From NCBI RefSeq assembly GCF_003439925.1, contig NZ_QQRR01000002.1, positions 744,001-808,000 of the forward strand: 64,000 bases of DNA, written 5' to 3'. The position numbers and the translations under genes were made by a program. Below, piece after piece: positions 28,374-32,362 of this stretch; positions within the stretch are counted from its first letter, which is position 1, and every line of letters begins with the position of its first letter. A model generated the notes under the pieces. The model ran no database searches. It had not been told where the DNA came from and saw nothing but the letters and a program-made list of their open reading frames with translations. This DNA comes from Haloprofundus halophilus. Lineage in GTDB: Archaea > Halobacteriota > Halobacteria > Halobacteriales > Haloferacaceae.

Positions 28374-28535
28374 TTACTGCGTGCTGTCGATGCCGTCGAT
28401 GAGGACGAATCCGTAGTTGCACTCGGTGCAGCGCCACTTCGTCTTCTCGCCGAGGTGGACGTTCGTACTGGCCGAGCGGTAGAACTCCTGGCTCCCGCCG
28501 CAACTCGGGCAGTCGTGTTCCATTTCGAGGCTCAT
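28374..28535 (-). CDS. Small zinc-finger protein (CPxCG-related)
   Basis: A 53-residue protein with two Cys pairs: 'HDCPSCGGSQEFYR' and 'KWRCTECNYGFVLIDG', which form one zinc ribbon. Haloarchaea encode dozens of such micro zinc-finger proteins, most of unknown role and some linked to swarming or biofilm formation. I chose ATG 28535 (MSLEMEHDC). The in-frame extension to 28679 is basic and looks non-coding. Confidence 0.82.
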   Translation of the reverse strand: MSLEMEHDCPSCGGSQEFYRSASTNVHLGEKTKWRCTECNYGFVLIDGIDSTQ

Positions 28536-28799
28536 GTCGGTATCTCGCGCGTGTGGTGTGTTGAAGATGTTGGTTCGGCGTCGGTCGCCATCGGCGGGGG
28601 CGCGGAGAGAACCCCGGATACTGTCGATTACGCGGCGGCGTCGAGCGGCGTGTACCGAGTCGCTGGACCACCCATACACTGTATACTACGATACCGAGTT
28701 TCGATCGACTGCCGTCCGCGACCCGGTTCGCCGCACCGATTTTCGACCGACTGTCCCCGCGGGCGAACCTCTTTGACGGGCGCGCACCTACGACCGGGC

Positions 28800-29042
28800 A
28801 TGGTCACCGAACTCTACGCGCTGGACGGCTGTCCGTACTGCGAGAAGGTCCACGACGCGCTGCAGGAGAACGACGTCGATTACGAGACGCACTGGACGGA
28901 GGCGATGCACTCCGACCGGGACGAAGTCAAGCGCGTGAGCGGCCAGCGTGCCGTTCCATTTCTCGTCGACACCGACCGCGGAGTGACGATGGGCGAGAGC
29001 GAGAACATCCTCCGGTACATCGAGAAGACGCTGGCGCGATGA
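28800..29042 (+). CDS. Glutaredoxin/GST-N-terminal-like thiol-redox protein
   Basis: An 80-residue single-domain protein of thioredoxin fold. The redox motif is CPYC in 'YALDGCPYCEKVHDAL', with a cis-Pro in 'GQRAVPFLVD' and a C-terminal 'MGESENILRYIEKTL' that resembles GST N-terminal domains. It would reduce disulfides with a small thiol, in haloarchaea probably gamma-glutamylcysteine rather than glutathione (inference). Its TGA overlaps the next gene's ATG (ATGA), which links it to cobalamin adenosyltransferase. Confidence 0.88.
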   Translation: MVTELYALDGCPYCEKVHDALQENDVDYETHWTEAMHSDRDEVKRVSGQRAVPFLVDTDRGVTMGESENILRYIEKTLAR

Positions 29043-29572
29043 AGATCTACACCGGCCGCGGTGACGAGGGACTGACCGACCTCAAGGACATGTCGCGCGT
29101 CTCGAAGACGAGTCCGCGCATCGAGGCCTACGGCACCGTCGACGAGGCGAACGCGCTCGTCGGCACGCTTCGACCGACCGGCTACGAAGACATCGACGAG
29201 ATACTCGAACGCGTCCAGAACCATCTGCACATCATCCAGGCGGACTTTGCGAACCCCGACCCCGACGAGGGCGACCCGCAGGTGCGCGAGAAACACGTCG
29301 AACGGCTAGAACAGTGGATCGACGAGATAGACGAGGAGCTCGAACCGCTGCAGTCGTTCATCCTGCCGGGCGGGAGCGAGTCGGGGGCGGCGCTGCACCA
29401 CGCTCGGGCGGTGGTCCGCCGGGCCGAACGCCGCGCCGTCGCGCTCGCCAGCGACGAACCGGTGAACGACCACGCGGTGACGTATCTCAACCGGCTGTCG
29501 GACGCGCTGTTCGTCTTCGGACGGGCGGTCAACGCCCACGACGGCGAGAAGGAGGAGTCGCCGACGTACTGA
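29039..29572 (+). CDS. Corrinoid adenosyltransferase, PduO type
   Basis: A 177-residue ATP:cob(I)alamin adenosyltransferase. The N-terminal 'MKIYTGRGDEGLTDL' is the PduO ATP-binding motif, and 'EAYGTVDEANALVGTL', 'SFILPGGSESGAALHHARAVVRRAER' and 'YLNRLSDALFVFGRAVN' are family signatures. It attaches the adenosyl group to reduced cobalamin to make coenzyme B12. It is translationally coupled to a glutaredoxin, which might help keep the corrinoid or thiols reduced (inference). Confidence 0.95.
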   Translation: MKIYTGRGDEGLTDLKDMSRVSKTSPRIEAYGTVDEANALVGTLRPTGYEDIDEILERVQNHLHIIQADFANPDPDEGDPQVREKHVERLEQWIDEIDEELEPLQSFILPGGSESGAALHHARAVVRRAERRAVALASDEPVNDHAVTYLNRLSDALFVFGRAVNAHDGEKEESPTY

Positions 29573-29692
29573 CCGCTCGTCGGAGCGAGACTGAGAGAAC
29601 CCGGTGAGTCCGAGATGATGCCCACGGACGCCGGGGTCGGGACAGATGCGGTGTCTGACGAGACCGGACAGGCACGGTCACAACACCGTGTT

Positions 29693-29706
29693 TTAGGTTA
29701 GCCTAA
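29693..29706. promoter_or_regulatory. DtxR/IdeR/SirR-like iron box, copy 1
   Basis: TTAGGTTAGCCTAA matches the well-known core of the DtxR operator (TTAGGTTAGCCTAACCTAA). It is a near-perfect palindrome in a region where such A/T-rich words are rare. The gene it controls is not obvious. Confidence 0.65.
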
Positions 29707-29727
29707 GATTGGCAAAAAGCGTTACGA

Positions 29728-29743
29728 TTTAGGTTTACCTAAA
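29728..29743. promoter_or_regulatory. DtxR/IdeR/SirR-like iron box, copy 2
   Basis: TTTAGGTTTACCTAAA is an almost perfect 16-base palindrome of the same TTAGG...CCTAA type. Its centre is 36 bp from that of copy 1. Paired boxes suggest cooperative binding of two repressor dimers over a promoter. Confidence 0.65.
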
Positions 29744-29861
29744 ACGCCTCGGAACGCGCGAATATGCGGAGAATCGAGTCGGCGGCGGCGATGTCGGTCG
29801 GAAGACGCCGCGGTCGGACAAGAAAATCCTTAAGTCCTATCCGCGGGTACGACCGAGTGCC

Positions 29862-29936
29862 GGGTTGGTGATCTAGTCTGGTTATGATACCTCCTTCACA
29901 CGGAGGAAGTCGGCAGTTCAAATCTGCCCCAACCCA
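29862..29936 (+). tRNA. tRNA-Val (anticodon CAC)
   Basis: A 75-base tRNA. The acceptor arm pairs GGGTTGG (29862-29868) with CCAACCC (29929-29935), with discriminator A at 29936. The anticodon stem CCTCC/GGAGG encloses TTCACAC (anticodon CAC, reading GTG), and the T arm is GGCAG-TTCAAAT-CTGCC. No intron and no encoded CCA are seen. A TTAAG element centred near 29831 is at promoter distance. Confidence 0.96.
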
Positions 29937-30188
29937 TCTTCTGATTCCTCGCGACGACGAGCGATAGCAACGGCGTAGCGCGGGCAGGACAAAGCGTTCG
30001 CGGAATCGAACGTGACGACGGCATTCGAACTCGGGAGTGAAGCGAACGGAGCGAGCGGAACGACCGAAGCTCGAACTGCTCCATTCCTTCGATGGAACGG
30101 GCGCGGACGCGCCTCTGAGTCCGATTTGCCGCCGCGCGCACGTCTCTCGACACCACACCAGCACTCCTGACCTGTTGCGAAACAGTTT
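29937..30188. other. Intergenic region between tRNA-Val and the TetR promoter
   Basis: About 250 bases with no gene-like frame of good codon bias. I see no duplicated tRNA 3' end that would mark an integrated element. A T-rich TCTTCTGATTCC directly after the tRNA may help end its transcript. The tetR promoter lies at the right end. Confidence 0.5.
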
Positions 30189-30204
30189 AACTGACCGGTC
30201 GGTT
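30189..30204. promoter_or_regulatory. TetR-type operator overlapping the tetR promoter
   Basis: AACTGACCGGTCGGTT is a 16-base near-perfect palindrome (one symmetric mismatch). It overlaps the TATA-like GTTTAAC (30185-30191) of the TetR/MATE operon, so binding would block transcription. It fits autoregulation by the downstream repressor. Confidence 0.65.
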
Positions 30205-30218
30205 AGTACGACCAAGAC

Positions 30219-30238
30219 CTGACCGACCAGTCAGTCGG
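30219..30238. promoter_or_regulatory. Second TetR-type operator in the tetR leader
   Basis: CTGACCGACCAGTCAGTCGG is a 20-base imperfect palindrome that repeats the TGACCG/CGGTCA half-sites of the first operator. It ends 13 bases before the tetR ATG, within the predicted leader. Two sites would allow tight repression. Confidence 0.6.
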
Positions 30239-30251
30239 AAGTCGACCCGAG

Positions 30252-30863
30252 ATGAGCGAGGACACTACGGACGAACTGATGCGCGCGACGTACCGCGCGC
30301 TCTGCGAGCGGGGGTACGCCGCGTTGACGATGCGCGACATCGCCGACGAGTGCTCGAAGAGCAAAGCGACTCTCCACTACCACTTCGACGGCAAACACGA
30401 CCTCCTGGTCTCGTTTCTGGAGTTCCTCGACGAGCGGTTCGCCCGGAAAATCGCGGCCATCGACGCCGACGACCCGACGACGGAACTGTTCGCACTCCTC
30501 GACGTCGCCTGTCCGTCCGCCGAAAGCGACGACGCCGGCGAGTTTCAGACGGCGATGCTCGAACTGACCGCACAGGCCCCGTACGAAGAGGAGTACCGAG
30601 AGCGACTGCTCGCCTTCGAGAGCCGCCTTCGCGCGGAGTTCGAGGGAGTCATCGACTCCGGCGTCGAGTCGGGCGCGTTCGACGGCGACGTCGACCCCGA
30701 ACGGACCGCCGAGTTCCTCCTCACCGCCATCGACGGCGCGCAGACCAGGCGGGTCGCGGTCGGTCACGACGCAGACAAGATGAGACAGATGATATACGAC
30801 TACGTACAGACGACCGTGTTAGCGGACGAATCGCCGAGACGAACCGAGGTGCGCGCCGAGTGA
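30252..30863 (+). CDS. TetR/AcrR family transcriptional repressor
   Basis: A 203-residue TetR protein. The N-terminal HTH ('GYAALTMRDIADECSKSKATLHYHFDGKHDLLVSFLEF', about residues 20-57) is canonical, followed by an all-helical ligand-binding domain. Its stop overlaps the GTG start of a MATE exporter by 4 bases, and two palindromes lie in its promoter. It very probably represses this operon until a compound exported by the MATE pump binds. The ligand is unknown. Confidence 0.93.
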   Translation: MSEDTTDELMRATYRALCERGYAALTMRDIADECSKSKATLHYHFDGKHDLLVSFLEFLDERFARKIAAIDADDPTTELFALLDVACPSAESDDAGEFQTAMLELTAQAPYEEEYRERLLAFESRLRAEFEGVIDSGVESGAFDGDVDPERTAEFLLTAIDGAQTRRVAVGHDADKMRQMIYDYVQTTVLADESPRRTEVRAE

Positions 30864-32362
30864 GCTTGCTCGACCGCATCGACAGCGTGTTCAAAGGCCC
30901 CGAGGACGTCGACCTCACCTCCGGCGGCATCGTGAAACCGCTGTTCTACCTCTCTTTGCCCATCGTCCTCACGAACCTGATGCAGACGGCGTACAACCTC
31001 GCGGACACGTTCTGGCTCGGCCAGTACGACACCGCCGCGCTCGCGGCCATCAGTTTCGCGTTCCCGATGGTGTTTCTGCTCATCTCCATCGGGACGGGCT
31101 TCTCCGTCGCCGGGAGCGTCCTCGTCGCCCAGCACACCGGCGCGAACGACGAGGAGAAAGCGGAGTACGCGGCGTCGCAGACGGTGACGTTCTCGCTTCT
31201 CGCCGCGCTCGTCCTCGGACTGGTCGGCTTCGTCTTCGTCGAGCAACTGCTGAGCGTCTTCGGGGCCTCCCCCGAGGTGCTCCCGATGGCGACGAGCTAC
31301 ATGCAGGTCATCTCGCTCGGCCTCATGTTCATGTTCGGCTTCTTCGTCTTCGTCGCGCTGATGCGCGGCTACGGCGACACCGTCACGCCGATGCTCGTCA
31401 TGTTCGGCTCCGTCGTCCTCAACATCTTCCTCGACCCGTTTCTCATCTTCGGGTTCGACGACAACCCGCTGTTCGCGATGCTCGGCGCGGAGAGCCTCCA
31501 GACGACGCTGTTCGCCGCGACGGGGTACACCGGGTCGGGCATCACCGGCGCCGCCGTCGCCACCATCTTCTCGCGGGCGCTCGCGCTGGCCGTCGGGTTG
31601 GCTATCATGTTCAACGGCACCCGCGGCGTGGAGATCCACCTCCGCGACATGGCTCCGAACTTCGGCTACGCGCGGAAGCTGCTCGCCATCGGCCTCCCAG
31701 CGTCCGTCGAGGGTTCCGGCCGAGCCATCTCCATCAACCTGCTGCTCATCGTCGTCGGGCTGTTCTCGACGAACGTCGTCGCCGCCTACGGCGTCGGGAC
31801 GCGGGTGCTGTCGGTCATCTTCCTGCCGGCGCTCGCCGTCGCCCGCGGCGTCGAGACGATGACCGGTCAGAACATCGGGGCGAACAAGCCCGACCGCGCC
31901 GAGAAGGCCGCCAACAGCGCCGCGCTGACGATGTTCGTCGTCCTCTCGGCGTTGGGCGTGCTCACCTGGTTCGGTGCCCGACCCATCGTCGGCGTGTTCA
32001 CCGACAACCAGGAGGTCATCAGCATCGGCGCGGAGTTCCTCCGCTACGTCGCGCCGACGTTCGGATTCATCGGCATCGTCCAGTCGTTCGTCGGTAGCTT
32101 CCGCGGCGCGGGCAAGACCGTCGTCGCCGCCGTCATCTCGGTGTCGATGCTCGGCCTCGTCCGCCTCCCGGTGGCCTTCTTCGGAGCGGCCGACTTCGGA
32201 CTCGGCCTCGGGTCGTCGGGTATCTGGCTCGGATTCGCCGTCTCGAACGTCGTCGGGGGCGTCATCGCCATCCTCTGGTACCGCCGGGGGACGTGGCGCG
32301 ATGTCGACATCTCGTCGGACCGGAGCGTGCCGAGCGTCGAAGCCGAACCGACAGACGACTGA
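30860..32362 (+). CDS. MATE family efflux transporter
   Basis: A 500-residue, 12-helix multidrug and toxin extrusion protein. The N-terminal 'GGIVKPLFYLSLPIVLTNLMQTAYNLADTFWLGQYDTAALAAISFAFP' and the mid-protein repeat 'LLAIGLPASVEGSGRAISINLLLIVVG' are the two MATE halves. It uses a sodium or proton gradient to export organic compounds. It starts at GTG 30860, overlapping the TetR stop (GTGA), so it is co-translated with its presumed regulator. A Ser/Glu-rich tail of about 15 residues ends the protein. Confidence 0.93.
   Translation: MSLLDRIDSVFKGPEDVDLTSGGIVKPLFYLSLPIVLTNLMQTAYNLADTFWLGQYDTAALAAISFAFPMVFLLISIGTGFSVAGSVLVAQHTGANDEEKAEYAASQTVTFSLLAALVLGLVGFVFVEQLLSVFGASPEVLPMATSYMQVISLGLMFMFGFFVFVALMRGYGDTVTPMLVMFGSVVLNIFLDPFLIFGFDDNPLFAMLGAESLQTTLFAATGYTGSGITGAAVATIFSRALALAVGLAIMFNGTRGVEIHLRDMAPNFGYARKLLAIGLPASVEGSGRAISINLLLIVVGLFSTNVVAAYGVGTRVLSVIFLPALAVARGVETMTGQNIGANKPDRAEKAANSAALTMFVVLSALGVLTWFGARPIVGVFTDNQEVISIGAEFLRYVAPTFGFIGIVQSFVGSFRGAGKTVVAAVISVSMLGLVRLPVAFFGAADFGLGLGSSGIWLGFAVSNVVGGVIAILWYRRGTWRDVDISSDRSVPSVEAEPTDD

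Follow-up and report, generated by a model that had tools for sequence, protein, structure and literature searches.

RyhB, PrrF and FsrA are bacterial iron-sparing small RNAs under the control of Fur, with aconitase as a classic target, and MrsI of mycobacteria is an iron small RNA controlled by IdeR. Among bacteria such RNAs are textbook knowledge, and the top-ranked results from the open-access PubMed Central literature gave none for the archaea. IsrR of Staphylococcus is described, in passages of PMC11257911 and PMC9410917, as iron-repressed and Fur-controlled with iron-sulfur and TCA-cycle enzymes as its targets, and the former paper includes an aconitase assay. For the haloarchaea, a passage of PMC12482152 presents SHOxi of H. 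volcanii, 254 nt long and encoded on pHV3, as a stress small RNA that destabilises a metabolic mRNA, that of malic enzyme, by pairing.

The window considered here is a stretch of 64,000 nucleotides from Haloprofundus halophilus, in which two DtxR-type palindromes lie between a cobalamin adenosyltransferase gene and a tRNA-Val gene (Table 1). An earlier note on this DNA had drawn attention to the pair, and both palindromes prove to be real and exact, with centres 36 bp apart; the conservation check that it proposed finds operator A and operator B kept in all four congeners. Its view that on the minus strand nothing follows but antisense of the adenosyltransferase gene was wrong, since operator B is separated from that gene by an intergenic stretch of about 120 bp (29573-29692), which contains a conserved element. 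The two boxes are probably the operators of an iron-sparing RNA read from the minus strand, which would mask start codons and so be RyhB-like in function. The suggestion of an iron-regulated RyhB-type small RNA hence survives as to the small RNA and, probably, its job, the minus-strand element being conserved behind the boxes, and fails as to strand and coordinates. Downstream of the tRNA gene, at 30252-32362 on the plus strand of the window, a TetR-like regulator is by eye followed directly by a MATE-like transporter.

Table 1. Features of the locus, in positions of the window
Feature	Position	Strand	Remarks
Cobalamin adenosyltransferase gene (pduO type)	29039-29572	+	convergent neighbour; PF01923, E 3e-59
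Predicted small RNA	~29590-29690	-	~100 nt; 3' end uncertain
Hairpin 2	29600-29635	-	outer stem CCCGG/CCGGG, inner stem GUCC/GGAC
Loop motif M1	29616-29627	-	CCGUGGGCAUCA; predicted ferredoxin seed, complement of UGAUGCCCACGG at the ferredoxin (fdx) start codon
Linker motif M2	29639-29649	-	GCAUCUGUCCC here, GCGUCUGUCCC in several relatives; candidate aconitase seed
Hairpin 1	29649-29688	-	closing stem CGGUGUU/GACACCG
Operator B (putative)	29693-29706	.	TTAGGTTAGCCTAA, exact match; between the TATA-like element and the RNA start
TATA-like element	29713-29719	-	CTTTTTG, between the boxes; putative, with presumed spacing to the start
Operator A (putative)	29729-29742	.	TTAGGTTTACCTAA, exact match; upstream of the TATA-like element in the minus-strand promoter
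tRNA-Val(CAC)	29862-29936	+	ARAGORN; Rfam RF00005

The box motif is very probably an iron-regulon operator, because exact sites are rare, because others of them precede genes of iron-transport type and because Fe_dep_repress proteins are encoded in the same genome. The exact form TTAGGN4CCTAA occurs at 14 sites in the 3.47-Mb genome, two of which are operators A and B, and its reversed control pattern at none; with two mismatches allowed there is no excess in the window (four found against 3.6 expected). Among the other 12 exact boxes some precede genes with profile matches to Peripla_BP_2 (twice, one below cut-off) and FecCD, and others precede genes for an RGP-type protein and an FAD-dependent protein. 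Five matches to the Fe_dep_repress domain (PF01325) stand above cut-off in the genome, one of them only with neighbours in frame. As for a DtxR/Idr regulon, then, an operator palindrome common to iron-uptake genes is found together with an encoded repressor of the family. Nine of the 14 exact boxes are clustered within about 26 kb (G000:C1:704-730 kb, loci L032-L040), with iron ABC-transporter genes and the RGP-type protein (PF03214); here and below G000 is the window genome, and g, G and L numbers stand for genera, genomes and loci. Across the elements described below a box of the operator B type stands before the RNA in 36 of 36 (as part of the search pattern, and by inspection in G021). A second box is present with no or one mismatch in g1, g7, g18, g21, g22 and g25, and was not found in the elements of Haloferax (g28) or g55, which have one box only.

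From the usual spacing to the TATA-like element the 5' end of the RNA would lie near 29690-29688, and the placing of operators on either side of that element would fit repression by iron. A T-rich element is kept at the corresponding position in related loci (CTTTTTG, GTTTATG, GTTTTAG and CTTTTTA, for example). The covariance model matches the window genome at 29608-29690 (773608-773690 on its contig), and a pyrimidine-rich sequence stands 3' of hairpin 2 on the minus strand. Across five congeners the RNA region has a mean identity of 0.88, with 84 of 109 columns invariant. A conserved open reading frame on the minus strand was rejected by eye, the spacing of the motifs being variable and not a multiple of three. 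Rfam covariance models run at gathering thresholds over 28400-31000 matched only the tRNA, and membership by homology in RyhB or another described RNA family was set aside for want of any further match.

M1, the most conserved part of the RNA, belongs to a loop closed by a stem of variable sequence. Hairpin-2 stems differ among genera and yet pair (CCCGG/CCGGG, GGACC/GGTCC, GGCCGAC/GTCGGTC, CCGGGACGG/CCGTCCTGG, GATTCCGG/CCGGAATC), and a stem of at least four pairs encloses M1 in 36 of 36 elements searched, G377 being left out. When the flanks were shuffled the observed stem was reached at p <0.05 in 25 of the 36 elements, 15 of these being from Haloferax and not independent. The remaining 11 gave p >0.05 and include four of the five Haloprofundus elements, the stem of which is split by an internal loop of the kind that the test does not allow; p fell below 0.05 in one of five Haloprofundus, in neither of the two g18 and in one of four g55 elements. 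The mean folding z-score over 31 elements is −1.86, with 22 of them below −1.5, and the element of G024 folds no better than its shuffles (z +1.09). We are highly confident in predicting a conserved structured RNA gene on the minus strand behind the DtxR-type boxes.

Within the family the pattern of one box and the M1 core was found in 33 of 170 genomes, and its reversed control in none of the 170. After two were dropped (G035 and G446) and G021 was added from the model search, an RNA preceded by one box or more is counted in 32 of the 170 genomes and in seven of 28 genera, namely in g1 (5/5 genomes), g7 (1/1), g18 (2/2), g21 (1/4), g22 (3/3), g25 (5/5) and g28 (15/15). The covariance model, run over the same 170 genomes, gave matches with E 1.4e-5 or better in g1 (five genomes), g18 (two), g7 (one) and g22 (three), and weak ones, with E from 0.004 to 0.09, in four of the five g25 genomes. 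Identification of g28 as Haloferax is based on its PCNA, which is identical at 245 of 247 positions to PDB 3hi8, which we take to be the PCNA of H. volcanii. A scan of named genomes found the RNA also in Haloprofundus marisrubri (the sequence there being that of G002, a congener of the window genome), Halogeometricum limi, Halegenticoccus soli, Halobium salinum and Halogranum rubrum. The pattern matches in G035, G209:C1 and G446 and a second one in G411 were dropped as lying before or in apparent protein genes, and the weak model matches L067-L072 were not counted, being without a box or, in L070, having one with two mismatches only.

A strict sequence pattern found only eight of 392 genomes of the order. 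With the pattern of box and M1, eight genomes outside the family matched in a sample of 392 from the order, and three of these matches (G200, G159 and G170) are false, again lying before or in apparent protein genes. G377, the one genome of a third family in which it was found, has a box, a hairpin, an M2-like GGCUGUCCC and the same M1 in an interval bounded, as in the window, by pduO and tRNA-Val (G377:C17:2028-2095, L399), with a T-run after hairpin 2, and because another family has the RNA at the same place the locus is probably old. The pattern did not detect relatives of G377 in its own family, where diverged copies may exist. In g55, of another family, four of 11 sampled genomes have a box and M1 at a different locus (L263-L266), and exact M2 is present in two of the four, placed after M1 and not before it, so that the RNA either moved there with its modules swapped or evolved again. 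An exact M2 follows M1 in G024 (g21) as well. In at least L263 and L266 the g55 elements by eye adjoin an ACT-domain/SerB-like gene.

Ferredoxin appears quite likely to be a target of the RNA, through complementarity of M1 to the start of the ferredoxin message. In the window genome M1 is perfectly complementary there over 12 nt, and in four other genera over 12-14 nt. The protein concerned is the 129-residue haloarchaeal [2Fe-2S] ferredoxin (NF041393, PF00111). The M1 complement TGATGCCCAC has four sites in the window genome, these being the RNA gene, the ferredoxin start codon and two sites at which the match ends after 11 nt, and TGATGCCCACGG occurs only at the RNA gene and the ferredoxin start codon; among 978 ATG sites of the window no other matches M1 over more than 10 nt. 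The sequence ATGCCCACGG has three sites in the window genome, of which no more than two, leaving aside the RNA gene itself, could also occur in relatives, and the ferredoxin start is among its sites in seven of seven genomes of seven genera searched, 30 of the 45 sites having been inspected. The contiguous match at the ferredoxin start measures 12-14 nt in 16 of 26 genomes examined (12 in Haloprofundus), 10-11 nt in nine Haloferax and 8 nt in G024, a G-U pair interrupting it there. Ferredoxin starts were followed through 57 hand-chosen genomes of 168 with a match, related genomes among them not being independent: ATGCCCACGG stands at the start codon in 27 of 27 genomes bearing the RNA, and in 16 of the 30 without a detected RNA, the other 14 lacking it. 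At the level of genera the association between the RNA and ATGCCCACGG at this place is weak (p 0.02-0.06).

Aconitase is fairly likely to be a second predicted target in at least some genera. The M2 complement GGGACAGAYG has 121 sites in five genomes, 89 of which were inspected (six of 34 in G028), and stands at the start codon of aconitate hydratase in four of the five (G000, G010, G028 and G300), the protein of G028 matching NF005558 above cut-off; no aconitase start was found among the 20 sites of G021. M2 matches the aconitase start over 11 nt in G010, G028 and G300, which are of three genera (G010 and G300 by eye), and over eight contiguous nucleotides in the window genome, where seven other ATG sites of the window also reach eight. 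In two Haloferax genomes, of which 400 kb each were scanned, an aconitase matching M2 was not found; only the longer AcnA-type aconitase was seen, with a start that does not match. Whether M2 and the aconitase start had changed together in Haloferax was asked in these two stretches of 400 kb, which showed the longer aconitase type only. What is looked for in an iron-sparing small RNA, complementarity to the start region of mRNAs for iron proteins, is thus found for ferredoxin (12 nt) and aconitase (11 or 8 nt), together with a conserved structured RNA gene of its own, predicted from sequence.

The RNA could be real and regulated by iron and yet act on other mRNAs or on a protein, the matches to ferredoxin and aconitase being coincidence or relics, and to this we give a modest chance, well short of likely. 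By predicted duplex energy (RNAduplex) ferredoxin does not stand out, since 46% of the 978 ATG sites in this GC-rich DNA score equal or better, and because the energies fail to discriminate, the target calls were made from exact matches and conservation and not from energies. Start codons of conserved proteins are moreover themselves constrained, in the window genome M2 matches over a short run, the Haloferax stretches showed no M2-matching aconitase, and the sites of both search patterns were inspected in part. Against this, outside the RNA gene itself the window genome has the 12-nt complement of M1 only once, at the ferredoxin start codon, both M1 and M2 match start codons of iron-sulfur proteins, and M1 is the best conserved part of the RNA although the stem around it changes.

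That the RNA is an iron-regulated cis-antisense RNA whose purpose is control of the convergent adenosyltransferase gene, and with it of cobalamin metabolism, is very improbable. The gene does adjoin the RNA convergently in the window, as it does in several other genera, and an abundant antisense RNA to an adenosyltransferase gene is reported for H. volcanii in passages of PMC5892119. However, the conserved part is intergenic and does not lie over the gene, in Halobium the boxes and the RNA are about 1.1 kb away from it, the g55 candidates are in another locus altogether, and M1, M2 and the changes in the stems would be left without explanation. Antisense control as the main role, as the earlier note had allowed, is therefore disfavoured, and it may occur as a side effect.

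Least probable of all is regulation of the plus strand by the near-symmetric boxes, whether of tRNA-Val, of the short RNA formerly placed at 29755-29840 or, in the five loci of other genera where the boxes stand 5' of it, of a DUF7553-like gene, since in five congeners the plus-strand interval is the least conserved (20 of its 65 columns are invariant and identity averages 0.60, the figure for the minus-strand RNA being 0.88), the 40 nt that precede the tRNA show a conservation of their own (0.92), and the boxes persist in Haloprofundus and Halobium where the DUF7553-like gene is absent from the interval. This small gene of about 80-90 codons lies between the boxes and tRNA-Val in L006, L012, L013, L019 and L022, and the L006 protein, the one on which Pfam was run, is DUF7553 (PF24430).

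Under the favoured reading of an RNA that spares iron by masking start codons, a repressor presumably of DtxR/Idr type would, with iron present, occupy both sides of the TATA-like element and keep the RNA gene off. When iron is low a structured RNA of about 100 nt would be transcribed from the minus strand, and its hairpin-2 loop M1 would base-pair at the start codon of the mRNA for the [2Fe-2S] ferredoxin; the linker M2 would do so at that of the aconitase mRNA in several relatives, and perhaps more weakly in the window species. Translation of iron-sulfur proteins would be blocked in this way and scarce iron spared. TATA-like elements are seen by eye some 27-30 nt before the ferredoxin and aconitase start codons, and because of this the leaders of the two messages are suggested to be short or absent; in a message without a leader the 5' end coincides with the start codon, which is then a natural place for pairing. 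According to passages of PMC4983044, 72% of the protein-coding transcripts of H. volcanii are leaderless. In iron-starved H. volcanii the ferredoxin HVO_2995 is about two-fold down, as are several other iron-sulfur or ferredoxin-linked proteins, in the portions of PMC11349517 that bear on this, and these published data fit the iron-sparing reading without proving it. Since each of the 15 genomes of g28, which we identify as Haloferax, has the RNA, the model species H. volcanii and its established genetics should offer a way of testing it.

SHOxi is like the RNA described here in being haloarchaeal, and identity of the two was rejected by replicon and length, the one being 254 nt on pHV3 (in a passage of PMC12482152) and the other about 100 nt beside pduO and tRNA-Val. 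The abundant antisense RNA of H. volcanii in PMC5892119 is probably the same transcript, because strand and neighbour fit, provided that HVO_RS16235 is, as we infer, the pduO gene listed as HVO_2395 in part of PMC8305020; in the passages concerned it is classed as antisense and carries no link to iron or ferredoxin. A very abundant noncoding RNA of 111 nt is also described in H. volcanii, as sRNA_61 in passages of PMC12482152 and as STRG.2577.4 in passages of PMC5892119, and as ribosome-associated in one of the papers; its length is close to that expected for the iron RNA, a likeness of length alone.

IsrR differs in being bacterial and Fur-controlled, the sequences having been compared through Rfam only, and MrsI, also bacterial, is alike in that a DtxR-family repressor controls the RNA, a likeness by repressor type alone. 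With RyhB, PrrF and FsrA the haloarchaeal RNA would share control by an iron repressor and pairing, here predicted, near the start of mRNAs for iron proteins. In contrast to them it is archaeal, has operators of DtxR/Idr type and not of Fur, and would pair exactly at start codons; we know of no Hfq step for it. Here the sequence indicates both how the RNA would be controlled, through the DtxR-type boxes, and what its targets probably are. On balance we favour the view that this is the first iron-sparing regulatory RNA of the Archaea, under DtxR/Idr control and independent of RyhB, with two movable seed modules directed at the start codons of ferredoxin and aconitase in messages of little or no leader, and with a rearranged version, in swapped order and at a new locus, in a second haloarchaeal family. 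If so, a second domain of life arrived at the same route from iron repressor through RNA to ferredoxin and aconitase, here with pairing at the very start codons, an arrangement that would suit largely leaderless organisms such as H. volcanii.
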